The notes below the pieces were generated by a model. That model had not been told where the DNA came from, ran no database searches, and saw only the letters and a program-made list of their open reading frames with translations. A stretch of 46,086 nt of DNA, taken from NCBI GenBank assembly GCA_030706385.1, contig JAUZOQ010000018.1, forward strand, positions 1 through 46,086. Direction: 5' to 3'. Source of the stretch: Bacteroidota bacterium (GTDB lineage: Bacteria; Bacteroidota; Ignavibacteria; Palsa-1295). The translations under genes were made by a program, and so were the position numbers. Positions 4,779 to 14,835 of this stretch are shown here, one piece after another (positions within the stretch are counted from its first letter, which is position 1; each line of letters begins with the position of its first letter).

Positions 4779-6215
4779 TTAGAAATTCAATTTCAGCACC
4801 GGTGTGATAATGAAGAAGTCTGTCTGTTCCCACTTCTTCGGATCACGGAAGACGACGGCAGCATACTTAACTTCAAGATTTAGCCAAGTGAAAATTCTCA
4901 CGAAGCCATCGGCAAGGAGTTCGTTGCAATACTGCAAGCTCATACCGTAATCATATCCGCCTTCGGAAGGATGATTAAATCCGATCTTGATCAACGGATC
5001 GAATTGCGAGAAGCTTCCGGCATCGACGAGATCGACATTTGTCGAAGGTATTCCCGACTTCGTACCGACTGTCACGGCATTGACCCGGTGTGTTCCGCCG
5101 CCAAGCTGAATATAGGCGCCGCGTAAGCCTTCGGCAAATGCGTACTGGACCCACAAGTGGCCCGACAATCCGAGATAAAAGAGGCTATCTTTCGCTACAC
5201 CGTTGATCGTACCATGATAGCTGGTGCGATACCGATTGAATTGGCTGGTATCCGCTGCGCGCTGCGAGAACGTGCTCGTCGAAGGAGTGAATGCATCGAA
5301 GAACTCGCCACCCAATGAAAGCCTTCCGGATTTCTTGCTGCTAAAGACATCGAGCATCTGATCGATCTGTGCCTGGAAACCTTGTGTTCCTTCGAGTTTC
5401 CGTTCCTTGATCTTCAATCCGCCTGCAACGACGAACGGTGTGAGTCCTGCTTCGCCGAGCGGGAAATCCAATCCGATGCGAACGTCCGTCATTTCCTTGT
5501 GGATGATTCCAACGACACCGACATTACCCTGCATCCAGAACGGCCATCCGAGATAGTCATACCCGACATTCATTCCGAAGCCAAAGCCCGATTTGAAAAC
5601 GATATCGCCTCCAAAAATTGATGCCGAAATATTTGCATACTGAATGCGCTGCTGCTCCTGCTCCGAAGAGAGCATCGTATACTCATAATCAGCGCGGTTA
5701 TTGATCTTATTATAGAGGTCTTCGCCAAGGATGCGCTTGATCTGCGGAGTGCCATAGACTCCGATGGATTCGATCACGATCTTCAAGAGATCCATTTGGT
5801 TATTAAGCTCGCCTTCGATCTTTGTCGGAGGTTTCTGCGTAACAACAAGATCGGCATTCGAACTCGGTGAAATATTCTTACCGGCCTTACGCAATGCAGA
5901 GATCACGCGTGAGCGCACGCTGCGATCGGTAACGATCCATTGAATAAGCTCGCTCTGGCGTGCTGTATCGATCGATTCGATCGCCGAGAGGATGCTCTTC
6001 AGTGCACGGCTTTCTTCCTGCGCATTCTTCAACTCTTCACTCCAGTTGACTTGCGGTGTATTCCCCTGTGTCTGCGGGTTCGCTGTCGTGCCGGTTCCGG
6101 TCGTCGGTTGTGCGTTCAGCCTTGCTCCGGCGAACGATACGCTCAGGACAAGGACAAACGCTGCCAATACCTTCCATGCTCTTGCCACTGGAAATTTTTT
6201 CGGTGTAGTGTACAT
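4779..6215 (-). CDS. Exported outer-membrane beta-barrel protein, paralogue of its upstream neighbour
   Basis: 478 aa, function not recognised. It has a signal peptide (positive start, hydrophobic core about 16-30, cleavage near LNA-Q). Next comes a Gln/Thr-rich linker and a helical region with the motif IQWIVTDR...ISALRK (about 91-110). The second half consists of alternating amphipathic strands with GWPFW (223-227) and VRIGLDFPL (245-253). It ends in aromatic-rich strands FFIITPVLKLNF, with the C-terminal Phe expected of an outer-membrane barrel. The TDR motif, the PFW and FPL blocks and the C-terminus all match the 580-aa protein encoded 22 bases upstream, so the two are tandem paralogues. 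It is the last gene before a terminator, in a unit led by the GldM-like gene. It could be an outer-membrane partner of that protein; this is inference. Confidence 0.8.
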   Translation of the reverse strand: MYTTPKKFPVARAWKVLAAFVLVLSVSFAGARLNAQPTTGTGTTANPQTQGNTPQVNWSEELKNAQEESRALKSILSAIESIDTARQSELIQWIVTDRSVRSRVISALRKAGKNISPSSNADLVVTQKPPTKIEGELNNQMDLLKIVIESIGVYGTPQIKRILGEDLYNKINNRADYEYTMLSSEQEQQRIQYANISASIFGGDIVFKSGFGFGMNVGYDYLGWPFWMQGNVGVVGIIHKEMTDVRIGLDFPLGEAGLTPFVVAGGLKIKERKLEGTQGFQAQIDQMLDVFSSKKSGRLSLGGEFFDAFTPSTSTFSQRAADTSQFNRYRTSYHGTINGVAKDSLFYLGLSGHLWVQYAFAEGLRGAYIQLGGGTHRVNAVTVGTKSGIPSTNVDLVDAGSFSQFDPLIKIGFNHPSEGGYDYGMSLQYCNELLADGFVRIFTWLNLEVKYAAVVFRDPKKWEQTDFFIITPVLKLNF

Positions 6216-6237
6216 AAACTTTCTTTGGTATTGAGTT

Positions 6238-7980
6238 TTAGAAATAAAAACGAGGAGTGATCAGGAAGAATGAGCTGGGCTCCCAAGGTTTTGCATCGCG
6301 AATGATCGGAGCAGAATAGCTCATCTCGATTCGCAGGCGGTCTTCGATCAGCTCGATCCATCCTCCGAAAGTAAAGAGATGGTCGTATGCTGCGCTAAGT
6401 CCGAATTTCGACGACTGGTGGTTAACGTAGTCGATCTCCATGTGAGGCGATACAGTGTTCGATACCTTCGCAAGATCCTGGATCTTATCGGCCTGATCGG
6501 CAGCAAAAAGTGCATGGCCGCCGTTTTTGCGCGGATCGGTATAGTCGTATCCGTTGCCTTTGGGAATCATGGATTGATAGACGTTATCAATACCGAAGCC
6601 TACCGATACTTGCAGGAAATTATTCAAGTTGAGCTGAACGATCGTCGGAATATAGAGCTGCATGATAAGCGCTTCTCTATAGAATGTTTGTCCCGGTTTG
6701 ATCGCAATACTCGCTCCATCGAGCGCAACTGCCGATGTGGCAGCACCATTATAGATGATGCTCGAATTGCTTCCTTGTCCCGGAGGCATGAGCGAGAACT
6801 TGAAGGCAAGAGGAAGATTGAATCCGCTGAAGAAATCGATACCTGCAAAGTATGCATCGACCGATCCTCCGAATGTTCCGGAGAGCTGGCGTGCCTTGAA
6901 GGTCAGGAAGTCGCTATTACCAAGATCGAGCGGGAAGACGAGGCCGAGCTTGACGTTGCTTTCAGCACCGATCTGATTTTTCAGATTCAGCCAGAACCGG
7001 CCGACTCCGCTTGACCAGAACGGCAAGCCAACTTCTTTGTTGCCAAGCTCAAGTTCAACTCCCAATTTTTTTGAAGCGTTTACGCGAAGATCGGAAATCG
7101 ATATATCAAAGATCCTTTCGTAGCGTGAAGCGCGAATATCCGAGCGCATCCCTTTGATCGAATTCGGATCGTCGGGAAGTGCCGTTGTCGATTCCGGATC
7201 GATCGGAGTCTTTATAGAATCAGCATTGACATCGACGGGAAGTTCAAAAGCTTCATCGGATGTCGGCAGGCCGTAGAATGCACGCTGCTCATCGAGTACG
7301 GCACGCTTGGAATAGAACTGATCAAAAAGCTTGCTGAAGATATAGCGCATCTTCGTATCTTTGACCAACTGGCTGCCATGCGGCACGATTTCGCCGGGAA
7401 TTTCGACGTTATCGCCTTGTATGGTATTGATATTCTCAAGCAATGCAGTGTTGCTGCGATGGAGAAGACGAACGACCGTCTTACCCTGGAAGGCTCTCTT
7501 TGCCTTGGTGCCACCGGCCTCTTCATCTCCGAAGAGTCCTAATCCGCTCTTGCTTTTTGTTTTCTTCTTTTCAAGGATCTCTCCATCGAGCAGAATGTGA
7601 AAGGGTTCGACTCTATCGTTGCCGATCGGAGCACAGAAAAGATAGATATCATCGATCCGGTATTCATCGGGCTTGACGCCGAACGGATCCTTTTGAAGGG
7701 CTTCCTTGATCTGATCGAAGAGCTCACGATCGGTGATATGCCATTTAATGACATTGGTGAAGGTATATGAATCGCCATAGGGATCCAGCAAACTCAGCTC
7801 CCGATAGGCCTTGTCGTTTTGTTTTTGGATCGCCTTAACCGTATCGACGATCGGTTGGGAAAAAACGGGCTGCGAAGCGAGGAGGAACGCAAGAGTCAGA
7901 ATGAAGGCTGCGGTAAAATGCCCGCTTCCCTTCCATGCTCTTTGTCCGGCTCCATCTCTTTGCTTTAAAGTATTTTTCAT
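6238..7980 (-). CDS. Exported outer-membrane beta-barrel protein with N-terminal periplasmic module
   Basis: 580 aa, function not recognised. A long N-region precedes the signal-peptide core (about 22-40, cleavage near FSQ-P). A periplasmic module follows with VIKWHITDRELFDQIKEALQ (about 77-96) and a basic KKKTKSKS stretch (about 138-145). A linker of roughly 100 residues absent from the paralogue comes next. From about residue 290 the sequence is strand-rich: GLPFW (318-322), VKLGLVFPL (343-351), and the last strand FFLITPRFYF with terminal Phe. It lies between the GldM-like gene (76-base gap) and its shorter paralogue (22-base gap), all on the minus strand. I considered GldN/PorN because of the position after a GldM-like gene, but the characteristic GldN motifs are not visible and a barrel is not expected there. 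Confidence 0.8.
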   Translation of the reverse strand: MKNTLKQRDGAGQRAWKGSGHFTAAFILTLAFLLASQPVFSQPIVDTVKAIQKQNDKAYRELSLLDPYGDSYTFTNVIKWHITDRELFDQIKEALQKDPFGVKPDEYRIDDIYLFCAPIGNDRVEPFHILLDGEILEKKKTKSKSGLGLFGDEEAGGTKAKRAFQGKTVVRLLHRSNTALLENINTIQGDNVEIPGEIVPHGSQLVKDTKMRYIFSKLFDQFYSKRAVLDEQRAFYGLPTSDEAFELPVDVNADSIKTPIDPESTTALPDDPNSIKGMRSDIRASRYERIFDISISDLRVNASKKLGVELELGNKEVGLPFWSSGVGRFWLNLKNQIGAESNVKLGLVFPLDLGNSDFLTFKARQLSGTFGGSVDAYFAGIDFFSGFNLPLAFKFSLMPPGQGSNSSIIYNGAATSAVALDGASIAIKPGQTFYREALIMQLYIPTIVQLNLNNFLQVSVGFGIDNVYQSMIPKGNGYDYTDPRKNGGHALFAADQADKIQDLAKVSNTVSPHMEIDYVNHQSSKFGLSAAYDHLFTFGGWIELIEDRLRIEMSYSAPIIRDAKPWEPSSFFLITPRFYF

Positions 7981-8056
7981 ATGTGAGATCAGCTCTTAAG
8001 ATATTTGAAAGAAATTCCCAAATTCATGTTCCGGCCCATCGCGTTTCAACGCTGCA

Positions 8057-9652
8057 TTAGCGCTTCTTCATGATCTTTATCGTTTTCGTGAACTTCTGTG
8101 CTGAAGTCGGATCGATAAAGGTCACTTTTACCGGCAAGCCTTCCTTCTTCAGGTTCGGCGGAGCCTTGACCAGACGCAACGTGAAGTCATAATCTCCGGT
8201 CTTCTGAGCTTTCGTATCGAAGAAGCCTCCGTCGGATTGGACGTTAAGATCGCCGCTAGTCGGAGAGTAGTCGCCTTCGATACCGAAACCGGCTTTCAAT
8301 TTCACGACCTTCTCGTCGACATAGACTGTTCCGCCGCCGCCAACATTGAGTGGTGGTGGAGCAATCGTAAACTCATCCTTTTTAAGCTGAGTATATGTCC
8401 GCATGAATTGCGTCTTGAAAAGGATCGTTATGCCCAGTTTCTTTCCTTCCATTTCGAGGAAGGTCGGAGTGAAAGAATACGTTGGCTCATTCACCGTCTT
8501 GAAATCCGCTCCATCGAGAGTCAGCTTAATTTGGTAATCACCGTTAAGATCGGCATATTTACCATTGATACTGAAGTGCACTTTCGTGAACGGCGTAGCC
8601 TGCTTTGCATCATCATCATACGGAGAATAGACTCCGCTATCTCCTGCAACTGGACGCAAAGCCTTCACAGTAACACTGAATTGCTGCGTAGTAATATCTT
8701 TCGGGCCGCCACCGCGTTTGGCATCGCCTTTGAATTTGACGGTATAGTTCTGGCCAACGTCGCTGGCAGAGGGAGTGAATACCCAGACCCAGTTCGTATC
8801 AACCTTCTTGAATTCACCAGGACCTTCGAGTTTCGTGATCTCAGTCTTACTCGAGAGCGCGCCTTCGATCTTGATCGGATTCGGCAGCTCCATTCCCGGG
8901 AAAGCAGAGAAATCATTCTCCACCGGATACAGTGCGATCTGGTCAAATTTGTTCTCGGCACGCTTAACATTGACGATGAAGTCGTTCTCTCCTAAGTTAG
9001 AGGAGAAATTCTGATACTGATCCCCTAAAAGCGAATCGATAAATCCCTTCAAGGCAACATTCTCGGTAATTCCGTCCTTGACTTCCTTCAACTCTCCCAC
9101 CGTCAGGCGCACAGCTCCGATCTTGACCGTATCGTCGTTCTTTGCATTTTGCGCAACGCCGACGACTTGGTTCGTCTTTGCTTTGAAGGCAAGCTTATAA
9201 TCGCCTTCACCAAATGAGGGTTTGAATTTATATTTAAAGATATAATCCTGGCCTTGCCGGACGCGCGGATAGGTGACGGAATCCGCCGCAATATCGATCG
9301 TCTGCATGACATTATTATTTCTCAGGATCGTAAGGGCAAGCGAATCGACGACGTCTTTGGCAGGATCGGATACGCGGACCTTAACGGAGAACTCACGCTC
9401 AGGCTCTTTCGGATCGCCAAGGGTCATGGATTGATCTGAAGTGCTCGACAAGCTGGTCTGAGATCCGCGCAATGCACTGATGATCGCTTCAGCGATCAAC
9501 TGAATACGCTTGGATTTTTGCTCCAGAGCAAGCTTCTCACGTTTGAGTTCTTCTTCGGCATCGTCTCTTTCGACGATGATGATAAGCAGTTCCAACAAAA
9601 CTGCAAGGTAGAGAATGAAATAGACTTTACCAGCGCCGCCGCCTTTAGACAT
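8057..9652 (-). CDS. Single-pass inner-membrane protein with Ig-like periplasmic rod (GldM/PorM-like topology)
   Basis: 531 aa. A short Gly/Lys-rich cytoplasmic start (MSKGGGAGK) is followed by one membrane helix (about 10-27) that contains a Glu at residue 21. A charged coiled coil follows (about 28-62, rich in Glu, Lys and Arg), then three to five Ig-like beta domains to the C-terminus. One of them carries the line WVWVFTPSASDVGQNYTVKF around 285-310. There is no cleavable signal. Length and topology match GldM/PorM, the periplasm-spanning subunit of the T9SS motor. However, the helical domain after the membrane helix is much shorter than in GldM, and no GldL-like gene precedes it (ribE does). 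Homology to GldM is therefore a hypothesis. A MotB/ExbD-like stator role is an alternative suggested by the buried acidic residue. It begins 155 bases after ribE and leads the two barrel genes. Confidence 0.6.
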   Translation of the reverse strand: MSKGGGAGKVYFILYLAVLLELLIIIVERDDAEEELKREKLALEQKSKRIQLIAEAIISALRGSQTSLSSTSDQSMTLGDPKEPEREFSVKVRVSDPAKDVVDSLALTILRNNNVMQTIDIAADSVTYPRVRQGQDYIFKYKFKPSFGEGDYKLAFKAKTNQVVGVAQNAKNDDTVKIGAVRLTVGELKEVKDGITENVALKGFIDSLLGDQYQNFSSNLGENDFIVNVKRAENKFDQIALYPVENDFSAFPGMELPNPIKIEGALSSKTEITKLEGPGEFKKVDTNWVWVFTPSASDVGQNYTVKFKGDAKRGGGPKDITTQQFSVTVKALRPVAGDSGVYSPYDDDAKQATPFTKVHFSINGKYADLNGDYQIKLTLDGADFKTVNEPTYSFTPTFLEMEGKKLGITILFKTQFMRTYTQLKKDEFTIAPPPLNVGGGGTVYVDEKVVKLKAGFGIEGDYSPTSGDLNVQSDGGFFDTKAQKTGDYDFTLRLVKAPPNLKKEGLPVKVTFIDPTSAQKFTKTIKIMKKR

Positions 9653-11456: not shown

Positions 11457-14400
11457 TTAGAACGTTGTTCCGAGTCCGATAACATAGCGGAATGCAAAAT
11501 TTTCTTTCCCGTCGAATGGGTGATTCAAGTAGATCGGGAAATAGAAACTTATCGTCGGGATCTGCCCATACTCCAAAGCAACTCCCTGCAACTGCCATGG
11601 CAGCCAGGACAGTATGCTTGTCTTGACGGTCACACCGGCATCGGTGAGAATATGCTTCAGGATCTGCGACCCCGTCTCTCCGACAGGCGGATTGCCGTAT
11701 TGAAACGAGCCCGTCCATCCGGCATCGGTGAATAATCCGAACTCGAACGAAGCTGCAAAGCTTCCGAGACTTTCGAACGGATTGGGCAGCTTCAGATCGG
11801 CATTCAGTCCGATCATATCGTTACCGGTTACAGTAATATTTCCGAGAGGATCGAAGTATTGCCCCGTATATCCCCTGACACCGGCTCCGCCTTCAACGAA
11901 GTAATGCGCTTCACTACTGAAATGGCGGCTGAGACTGGCAGCAGTCCGAAAGAAATCATTGCGCAGCATTTCGGAATTCGTAGCGCCCGAAATATTATAC
12001 TCATATTCATCGTTCAGGACGCCGGAAGATTTCCCAAAACTTCCATGCAGCTTCAGGTCCATCTGACGCGAGAATGGTATAATCTGCGTTATACCGATAC
12101 CGTACTGCGTAAAGGCATTCAACGTATTCGTCTTGATGAGGGTATCGCCCTGATACGATCGATCGACGGTCAGCAGATTGCCGATTCTGGCGAAAAAATA
12201 TGCCTGCGTATGTTTTGAGGCAGAGCTATAATGATAGCGGAATCCGAGCGACCGCTCCAATCCGGAATCCCAATGGAAGGGGTAGATCGGATAAAGGATG
12301 TTATCTTCTCCGAACGGACCGCGCTCTTCAAGATCAAAATCAAATTTGAATTTGTGAGATGCACCTAAGTAGAGATAGGTCGGACGTATCTCATGCTCCA
12401 GCGCAATATTGATCGTACCGATATCATTAAACTTCCGGATATCAAATGAAAATTTCGTCAGCCTACCCAGAAGACGGACATTGCGTTCATCTTTGATCTC
12501 GCCGTCGAGATAATCGTACCATCTGGTCTTAACATCTTTCGGCCCGCCAAGATGTCCGGAGCTATCTTCGACGCGCTCAGGAGAGAACTTAAAAATGAGT
12601 TTCAGATCCGAAGTATTATGCCTGCCTTGTCCGGAGAGAAGTCCGACTCCTAGATTCATTTTAGATACTGCATCATATCCAATAATGGGCCGCAGAATCG
12701 CATATCGGGCATCGAGAGGCGGGGCCATGTTCAGCTGAGTCCAAAGAGCCCATTCCGTTTTCGGGAAAAGCAATCCTTCGTAATTGTTGCGGCGGTTCAG
12801 ATCCATCAGCCTGCACGATGTATCAATCTCATACCATGAGACTTCTTTCGGAGTCGTGATCGATCCCTTATATGTCGGCCGCACCCAGTCCCATCCGGGA
12901 AAAAACAATCTTCCGGCCTCCGGTTTTCTGTATGCAGCATCCTGATTGACAGCCAGAGGAATTGTTGCTATACCCGTCGAGCCATCTTCGTAATGCAGCG
13001 TCAGATCGATAGGGGCAACTCCGAGATCTTTGTTGCGGAGTTTTACTGTGGTCTTGTATGTGCCATCAGATTGTTTCTCGGATTCTAGTCCGGTTGCAGC
13101 ATAGTCGATCGTTCGGGTCGAGGCAAACCATTCGTCGAAATAATAATCGAGATCGGCTCCCGAAACATCCTGCATCGTGCGTTTGAAATCATTAAGAGTT
13201 GGATGCTTGAAATGCCACCTTCTGAAATATTCTTTCATCCCTGCCCAGAACATCGAATCGCCGAGCACATATTCAAGCTGCGCAAGCCCGGCCAATGTTT
13301 TAAAATATACTTGCCCTGCATTAACACCTTCTCTGAACCAATCATGAGGAATCGTTAAGGGCTCTTCGTAACCTGAAGTTGCCAGGTCTAGATACGGAGC
13401 ATAATAATTCCTTCGCGTATCGGTTTCCGGGATGAACATTCTCGAAAGCCAGGGCCTTTCATCGACTCCGTGTTCGCGCTGATTTCGGCCGTAATGCGCT
13501 TCCTGGCACGTCATCTCGATAAACTCCGTGAAGCCTTCATCGAGGAAGGCATAACGCGTTTCGTTATTTCCGAGCATTCCATAGAACCACTGATGGCCGC
13601 CTTCATGAGCTATAAGTCCGGAGCTTGCGCTGCCATCCATAATGAGCTGCGGATACTCCATTCCTCCATCGCCGGCATGCGTATTCGTGAAGTTGCGGTA
13701 CTGATACCAACCAACTTTATGCGAATGATGGTTGAGCATGAAGAAGGTATTCGGCATGGCATCCTTCCAGGCTGCATCTTCGCTCGGTTTATACAGGCAA
13801 TGGACGGTGATCGTATCGCTCCAGGTATCCCATTCGTGAATGTATTCATGGGCCACCCAGGCAAAATCATGAACATTCGATGCTTTGAAATGCCATGTTA
13901 GAAACGGCGAGTGCTGAGCACTTGCGACTGAGTCGGGATAGACCTTGCCTTTCTTCACACCTCTTGCGATCTGATCATATCCCCATCCGACTTCTTCCGG
14001 ATTCTGACATTGGCCAGTCGAGCCGACGCAATATTTTGACGGCACCGTCATCGTCACGTCAAAATCCCCCCAGACTCCATAAAATTCGCGGGCAACATAT
14101 TCCTGATGATGCCAACCTTCACGGTCATATTCGCAGATCTTCGGATACCATTGCGACATCGAATATTTTATTCCATCGGCATTCATCCATCCGCCACGAC
14201 GAGTTAGAAGCGGGATCTGGACAAAGAAGGGCATGAAGAGCGTCACACTTGAATTCGGAGCAAGCGGTTTCTCGAGAATCACCTTCATAGACGTACCGGT
14301 GATCTTGAAATCCAAGTCCTTCATCGGCTGATCCCATCGAACTTCTGTTGAAGCAGGAATCAACGCTACCGGAACACTCACTTTTGAAATCGTTTGCCCG

Positions 14401-14702
14401 CCCCAATCACTTCGCTTATAGTGCTCGATCTTTTCAGCCACGCCGCGGTCATTTAGTGCCTTTGCCCGTTCATCCATCATCGAACCCGGTTGGAAAGCAT
14501 TATAGTAGAGGTGAAACCAGACTTCATGCAGAGTATCGGGTGAATTATTTGTATAGACCACAGCAAGCTTTCCATCGAAAGAATGAATGGAATCGATCAG
14601 TGTTCCGCTGATGGTGTAGGAAACATGTTGTTGCCAATAGTCAGCTGGCTGTGCTGCCGATTGTGAGACGACAAAGAATAGAAGGGCGATGATTTTTTTC
14701 AT
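11457..14702 (-). CDS. M1-family metallopeptidase fused to an Omp85-like C-terminal beta-barrel
   Basis: The frame opens at 14723, but a signal peptide starts cleanly at the eighth codon (MKKIIALLFFVVSQSAAQ), so I place the start at 14702, giving 1081 aa. Numbering below is from 14723. The peptidase part (about 30-560) has the aminopeptidase motif GGMEYP (353-358) and the zinc site HEGGH (373-377) with Glu396, a perfect HExxH-x18-E. From about 680 the protein changes to long beta-strands. At 949-952 it has VRGY followed by a strand containing KLPNP and then FTDAG, the order seen in the loop-6 region of Omp85/BamA barrels. It ends in the strand FAFRYVIGLGTTF. Inference: a surface or periplasmic exopeptidase held by its own outer-membrane barrel. 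It is 6 bases upstream of the oxidoreductase gene. Confidence 0.85.
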   Translation of the reverse strand: MKKIIALLFFVVSQSAAQPADYWQQHVSYTISGTLIDSIHSFDGKLAVVYTNNSPDTLHEVWFHLYYNAFQPGSMMDERAKALNDRGVAEKIEHYKRSDWGGQTISKVSVPVALIPASTEVRWDQPMKDLDFKITGTSMKVILEKPLAPNSSVTLFMPFFVQIPLLTRRGGWMNADGIKYSMSQWYPKICEYDREGWHHQEYVAREFYGVWGDFDVTMTVPSKYCVGSTGQCQNPEEVGWGYDQIARGVKKGKVYPDSVASAQHSPFLTWHFKASNVHDFAWVAHEYIHEWDTWSDTITVHCLYKPSEDAAWKDAMPNTFFMLNHHSHKVGWYQYRNFTNTHAGDGGMEYPQLIMDGSASSGLIAHEGGHQWFYGMLGNNETRYAFLDEGFTEFIEMTCQEAHYGRNQREHGVDERPWLSRMFIPETDTRRNYYAPYLDLATSGYEEPLTIPHDWFREGVNAGQVYFKTLAGLAQLEYVLGDSMFWAGMKEYFRRWHFKHPTLNDFKRTMQDVSGADLDYYFDEWFASTRTIDYAATGLESEKQSDGTYKTTVKLRNKDLGVAPIDLTLHYEDGSTGIATIPLAVNQDAAYRKPEAGRLFFPGWDWVRPTYKGSITTPKEVSWYEIDTSCRLMDLNRRNNYEGLLFPKTEWALWTQLNMAPPLDARYAILRPIIGYDAVSKMNLGVGLLSGQGRHNTSDLKLIFKFSPERVEDSSGHLGGPKDVKTRWYDYLDGEIKDERNVRLLGRLTKFSFDIRKFNDIGTINIALEHEIRPTYLYLGASHKFKFDFDLEERGPFGEDNILYPIYPFHWDSGLERSLGFRYHYSSASKHTQAYFFARIGNLLTVDRSYQGDTLIKTNTLNAFTQYGIGITQIIPFSRQMDLKLHGSFGKSSGVLNDEYEYNISGATNSEMLRNDFFRTAASLSRHFSSEAHYFVEGGAGVRGYTGQYFDPLGNITVTGNDMIGLNADLKLPNPFESLGSFAASFEFGLFTDAGWTGSFQYGNPPVGETGSQILKHILTDAGVTVKTSILSWLPWQLQGVALEYGQIPTISFYFPIYLNHPFDGKENFAFRYVIGLGTTF

Positions 14703-14835
14703 GAAGAGATGGTCGCAGAACAAAAACTTGGTGAAATCAACACAGGAGGGTTACATCAAATTCATCTTCGGATGCAATCGCGAGAATGACTCAACTGCCT
14801 CACCTCGCACCTGCTACATGATGGCTGATCCCCGA

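Follow-up and report, generated by a model that had tools for sequence, protein, structure and literature searches.

The GldLM/PorLM motor powers type IX secretion, and GldLM is described in a 2022 review as exclusive to Bacteroidetes (PMC9389320). This 5:2 motor is encoded as a two-gene membrane unit, in which GldL is a transmembrane (TM) hairpin protein whose helix 2 carries Glu49, a strictly conserved residue that is essential for secretion and gliding (PMC8986121), and GldM/PorM is a single-TM protein with a long periplasmic rod, a helical D1 domain lying in PorM between the TM helix and the immunoglobulin (Ig)-like domains D2-D4 (PMC12421860). Here, we describe a three-gene locus, P1-P2-P3, in a 46,086-nucleotide stretch of an Ignavibacteria genome (contig JAUZOQ010000018.1 of assembly GCA_030706385.1, positions 1 to 46,086; hereafter the window), which together with a membrane protein, L, encoded on another contig looks like a previously unnamed envelope-spanning machine of Kapabacteria and Ignavibacteria. 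We consider it probable that L, P1, P2 and P3 form an ion-driven, GldLM-like trans-envelope motor with L as the ring, P1 as the axle and P2 and P3 as the outer-membrane coupling. A literature search for GldLM-type proteins in Ignavibacteria and Kapabacteria found no description of this system, with subscription journals mostly outside its scope, so that the absence is not proof.

The three genes are open reading frames (ORFs) on the minus strand at 8057-9652 (P1, 531 aa), 6238-7980 (P2, 580 aa) and 4779-6215 (P3, 478 aa), separated by gaps of 76 bp (P1-P2) and 22 bp (P2-P3). They share an intrinsic terminator 3' of P3 (4726..4760, minus strand; UAAAAAAACGCGCUU-CCAAA-GAGCGCGUUUUUUUA), a strong hairpin with a U-tract (dG -21.5 kcal/mol, z -5.1) that was not among the output of a simple pattern scan for terminators. 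This layout agrees with a preliminary description of the window made from its sequence, which had also regarded full-length matches to known unrelated families as an argument against a new system; Pfam and NCBIfam scans placed none of the three proteins in a family above cut-off, and sequence searches of the PDB with P1, L, P2 and P3 profiles gave no match. An assignment of P1 to Wzt_C (Pfam, E 0.001), like a weak NCBIfam match, fell far under the cut-offs and was taken as generic beta-sandwich similarity or chance.

P1 (8057..9652, minus strand) is predicted from its ORF, its AlphaFold2 model (pLDDT 84), an alignment with relatives (A2) and their loci to be an inner-membrane single-TM protein with an Ig-like periplasmic rod. 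Its sole hydrophobic helix by hydropathy spans residues 10-28 (VYFILYLAVLLELLIIIVE; 9569..9625, minus strand) and belongs, in the model, to a single helix (residues 6-62) in which the TM segment continues into a coiled stalk, followed from residue 75 by almost nothing but beta-sandwich domains, with a short helical stretch at 185-215. The resulting rod (residues 75-528; 8069..9430, minus strand) returned generic Ig/cadherin strings in Foldseek, and these matches, being uninformative, were dropped as evidence for GldM. Conservation lies elsewhere in the protein: in an alignment of 28 proteins the invariant residues (V10, Y11, F12, Y15, L16, A17, V18, E21, L22, L23, I24, I25, E28, R29, D30, A32 and E33) fall almost all in or beside the TM helix and hardly any in the rod, giving the consensus VYFxLYLAVxxELLIIIVERDDAE, and a Glu within the helix, Glu21 in the window's protein, is found in 30/33 distinct TM sequences. 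Because an anchor is not normally the best-conserved part of a protein, the P1 TM helix looks, judging from these sequences, like a working part rather than a mere anchor.

P3 (4779..6215, minus strand; alignment A4), which ends in ...LKLNF, has the features of an outer-membrane beta-barrel protein according to its model: a signal peptide over about residues 1-36 (6108..6215, minus strand), a C-terminal barrel and a porin-like fold. AlphaFold2 (pLDDT 78) places an alpha/beta domain, predicted to be periplasmic, at about residues 84-183 (5667..5966, minus strand) and then a barrel at about residues 194-477 (4785..5636, minus strand) that runs up to the C-terminal Phe, and the top Foldseek matches in the PDB were all outer-membrane porins or channels, the best being OmpG (E 4e-4). 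P2 (6238..7980, minus strand; alignment A5), with a signal peptide over about residues 1-42 (7855..7980, minus strand) and a putative periplasmic N-terminal part, shows full-length homology to P3 (hhalign 99.7%, E 6e-26), and its C-terminal region (residues ~306-580; 6241..7065, minus strand) aligns with the P3 barrel in both blastp and hhalign. Both signal peptides are N-terminal and were read from sequence and hydropathy; P2 and P3 are, as far as their sequences tell, exported paralogues, and P2 is assigned to the outer-membrane barrels by homology. A trans-envelope set comprising a single-pass inner-membrane protein with a long Ig-like periplasmic part, GldM/PorM-like in topology, and two exported proteins ending in outer-membrane barrels had been proposed in the preliminary description, and it is borne out by the topology of P1 and, for the barrels, by the model of P3 and the homology of P2. 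The same holds for its remark that the barrels match no known type IX secretion system (T9SS) component: a Pfam scan of P2 and P3 gave no PorP/SprF match, and the comparison with GldN/PorN that it had proposed yielded no homology outside the signal peptides, since the hhalign score of a candidate GldN-like N-terminal domain dropped from 35.6 to 17.4, inside the range of shuffled sequences, once these were cut.

The distribution of the locus was surveyed in 61 genomes of the class, sorted into families (f1, f2, f3 and so on) and including the window's own genome (G000). P1 was found in 29/61 class genomes, comprising 13/13 of the window's family and 16 more. Within the GTDB species set it matched at least 135 stretches; the best 80 of these were labelled Kapabacteria, Ignavibacteria, Chlorobiota, unresolved Bacteroidota or bacterial metagenome-assembled genomes, apart from two odd labels (Armatimonadetes and Bradyrhizobiaceae) that were taken for misnamed bins. 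Among 77 distinct P1 loci carrying sufficient sequence downstream, genes of both the P2 and the P3 type stood behind P1 in 75, the two exceptions (L046 and L047) being second L-P1 copies in f2 genomes. The grouping is therefore not due to chance, and the adjacency in relatives, the lack of which would have spoken against the proposed set, is strongly conserved. In many loci outside f1, a protein with VWA and OmpA (peptidoglycan-binding) domains is encoded 3' of P3 (L037:1923-3266, L040:13605-14999, L049:13322-14689 and L041:644-2131); such a protein might tie the barrels to peptidoglycan, and no gene of this kind lies behind P3 in the window.

The inner-membrane partner of P1 was recognized in other families. 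L is a TM-hairpin protein encoded directly upstream of P1 in f2 and, more broadly, directly upstream of a P1-type gene in 16 loci of f2, f10, f12 and f19, with gaps of -14 to 84 bp and barrel genes usually 3' of the pair. An L-profile search located L in G000 at C155:11357-11629 (L070 8148-9125; 325 aa), and L was found in every P1-bearing genome of the sample except one that is 67% complete. It follows that the absence of an adjacent gldL, as noted in the preliminary description, is true at the window locus but is not equivalent to the absence of a GldL-like protein, as L is encoded on contig C155 and stands beside the P1-type gene in relatives. In three f10 and f12 genomes (G021, G024 and G033) the P1 protein query found no match, yet the gene directly behind L encodes a TM protein of the P1 type; the P1 profile detects such genes in L089, L158, L160 and L161 (E 1e-6 to 2e-11), and that in L159 was identified by eye from its TM helix. 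Barrel matches, some of them weak, were obtained in L158-L161 and L089. In further loci of f10 and f19, L is followed by a short M, by M' and then, in most, by two or three barrel-type proteins; no match of the P1 profile to M' was found, and we infer that the M/M' pair may be P1 split in two. A match of the L profile in G017 (E 7e-4) was dropped, its sequence looking like that of NuoJ.

Several relatives of these proteins occur outside the canonical arrangement. A second pair, L2-M2, is present in f2, f7, f14 and f15, and f2, f14 and f15 genomes hold several L paralogues each. In f14, f15 and f7, an L gene is followed by a gene for a giant protein of ~1800-1900 aa (L077:8846-14227, L078:8591-14194 and L081:2395-8091), and other L paralogues have no adjoining axle gene (L082:4045-5034, L083:7348-8379 and L086:7293-8474), a putative P-loop ATPase, recognized by eye, being encoded directly downstream of the paralogue in L083 and L086. 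On the P1 side, the window's own genome encodes at L048:10599-11684 (contig C76) an exported protein of 361 aa that is paralogous to the C-terminal half of P1 (residues 239-528, 35% identity), lacks the TM helix and recalls the separate M' protein of f10 and f12; an adjoining ORF (L002 28-1395) has an apparent T9SS C-terminal sorting domain at its end.

Residue conservation in L was counted over 57 distinct aligned sequences with gaps set aside, 12 further members, mostly L2, lying outside the count. The last TM helix (hairpin helix 2) carries a Glu in 56/56, hairpin helix 1 has an Arg at its end in 55/55 and the hairpin itself a Gly in 57/57; one L2 member (L039) has Gln at the Glu position. 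The Glu of L is aligned by hhalign with GldL Glu49, and the Arg lies 11 residues past the hairpin Gly, as Lys27 of GldL lies past Gly16 in the GldL sequences and in the peptides printed in PMC8986121. Comparison of L with GldL by hhalign scored 28.9-30.5, against 13.8-14.8 for reversed and at most 18.3 for shuffled profiles (L2 set), and the L2 profile matched three GldL proteins (E 2e-5 to 2e-4). These last matches do not suffice as proof of homology, as they mix TM and coiled-coil segments and are equalled by NuoJ with the hairpin alone.

Gene order, topology, the P3 barrel, the linkage and co-occurrence of L and P1, and conserved buried charges can be read from sequence or model, and they are the footing for the motor proposed here. 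Several copies of L would encircle the paired TM helices of a P1 dimer as a ring, and an ion, probably a proton, would pass via the buried Glu of L, perhaps with Glu21 of P1, to turn or shift the P1 stalk; this ring and ion half of the mechanism is proposed because of the conserved buried charges and the L-P1 linkage. The Ig-like rod of P1 would then carry the motion to the periplasmic domains of P2 and P3, which, held in the outer membrane through their barrels, would take it over. The foremost candidate for the load is SprA-dependent type IX export.

The best reading is that this system works like GldLM but is not to be filed as GldLM. Both have, in the case of L and P1 in the families where their genes adjoin, a two-gene membrane unit comprising a hairpin protein whose TM region bears an invariant Glu and whose helix 1 ends with a basic residue, a single-TM protein with a long Ig-like periplasmic rod as the second gene, and one or more outer-membrane-acting genes downstream. 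They differ in the P1 TM motif, VYFxLYLAVxxELLIIIVERD with its additional TM Glu, as opposed to RQKMINxMYLV in GldM, whose invariant Arg9 (A7 invariant columns) is not matched in P1; in the extra N-terminal TM helices that L often has; and in the partners, integral barrels here and GldK/GldN there. Resemblance to the T9SS PorKN ring and the PorG, PorP and SprF barrels would lie in outer-membrane-side force receivers encoded after the motor genes, from which P2 and P3 are set apart by the sequence comparisons given above. The 5:2 motors MotAB, ExbBD and TolQR likewise combine a single-TM axle bearing an acidic residue in its helix with a multi-helix ring partner, whereas the P1 axle is a long Ig rod with no plug, OmpA or ExbD domain, and the invariant acid is here in the ring protein.

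A number of results weigh against the motor reading. Neither the curated GldM model TIGR03517 nor a diverse GldM profile matched G000, and the former, in the same run, matched 51 other Bacteroidota genomes (48 over cut-off) as a positive control; the curated GldL model TIGR03513, run without a positive control, gave no match in G000 either, its sole L-side match being a sub-threshold coiled-coil match in an L2 protein (E 0.09). The L profile did not recover canonical GldL over 198 genomes of the phylum, and with a hairpin-only L profile (hmmsearch) NuoJ helices scored at least as high as GldL. Profile comparison of the P1 and GldM TM helices gave 10.4 against 13.4 for the reversed control, the P1 model passes from helix 6-62 to beta domains with no counterpart of the helical D1 of PorM, and the Pfam and NCBIfam models for MotA/ExbB and ExbD/TolR match neither L nor P1. 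In the window's family, moreover, L is unlinked to P1 and lies on another contig. Membership of GldL/GldM is thus not supported, and of the comparison of P1 with GldM/PorM that it had proposed the GldM-like topology stands and the signal in the TM helix and the D1 domain do not.

Descent is a separate question, and L and P1 may still share true ancestry with GldL and GldM as very divergent homologues, a view compatible with the motor reading to which we give a little less than an even chance. It draws on the hhalign scores of L against GldL, on the L2-profile matches and on P1 against GldM (41.5, reversed 25.6), and it is tempered by the mixed nature of those matches, by the silence of the P1 TM helix and by the fact that the P1 rod signal, above reversed and shuffled controls, comes down to one 94-column Ig-like stretch; the sequence evidence for descent is suggestive, not sufficient. 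In MotB, ExbD and TolR the acidic residue sits in the axle, and the TM Glu of P1, the patchy distribution of the system, untied to SprA, and the multiple L paralogues of f2, f14 and f15 would suit a force-transducing or ion-driven system with another outer-membrane role and a TonB/Tol-like purpose, such as nutrient uptake, envelope tethering or surface movement; as the ExbB, ExbD, TolQ, TolR and TonB Pfam models match neither P1 nor L, and P1 ends in neither a peptidoglycan-binding nor a TonB domain, we hold this to be unlikely. A passive scaffold linking the inner membrane to porin-like proteins, with no energy coupling and with L as an assembly factor, would accommodate all the physical features of P1-P2-P3 and the VWA-OmpA protein of many genomes, but it leaves unexplained the near-invariant P1 TM helix with its buried Glu, the invariant buried Glu and Arg of L and the strict co-occurrence of L with P1, and is in our view quite improbable.

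The narrower form of the motor reading, in which L-P1-P2-P3 is the T9SS motor of Kapabacteria and Ignavibacteria, replacing GldKLMN and coupled to SprA, is attractive because SprA is nearly universal in the class and no convincing GldM was found there. SprA matches occur in 60/61 class genomes (59 over cut-off), and in G000 the SprA/Sov translocon is encoded on C109 (775 bits with its neighbours included in the frame), as expected from the earlier statement that this genome uses T9SS. TIGR03517 gave no match in the class genomes shown in its run, a GldN profile, run without a positive control, gave none in the class, and a 24-member GldM profile gave two weak matches and no convincing one (G019:C12:42367-42702, E 2.6e-4, over 114/514 positions; and G028, E 0.003, inside a 2498-aa frame). 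The topology, moreover, mirrors PorLM plus an outer-membrane acceptor. The link is nonetheless unproven, because SprA also occurs without L or P1: it is equally present in f3, f5, f6, f8, f9, f11, f13, f16, f17 and several f10 genomes in which neither was detected, and no T9SS gene was recognized beside P1-P2-P3 in the gene maps that were read. We therefore regard a T9SS motor role as possible but rather doubtful, and the further proposition of a separate motor lineage, defined by its L-type hairpin together with an axle of the VYFxLYLAVxxELLIIIVERD type and passing force directly to the barrels, that has replaced the GldKLMN chain for SprA secretion in these groups, as somewhat unlikely.

The class thus carries SprA without a convincing GldM, and about half of the sampled genomes have the L-axle-barrel system instead. 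Should this system be a motor, it would represent a new type of ring-axle machine, one in which an outer-membrane barrel is the direct acceptor, and would offer a natural comparison for the coupling of motion to the outer membrane. SprA-bearing genomes in which neither a convincing GldM nor L/P1 was detected include G014, G016 and G019. Elsewhere in the window, positions 11457-14723 on the minus strand encode a protein of 1088 aa that resembles M1-type metallopeptidases and in which the C-terminal ~400 residues appear barrel-like by eye.

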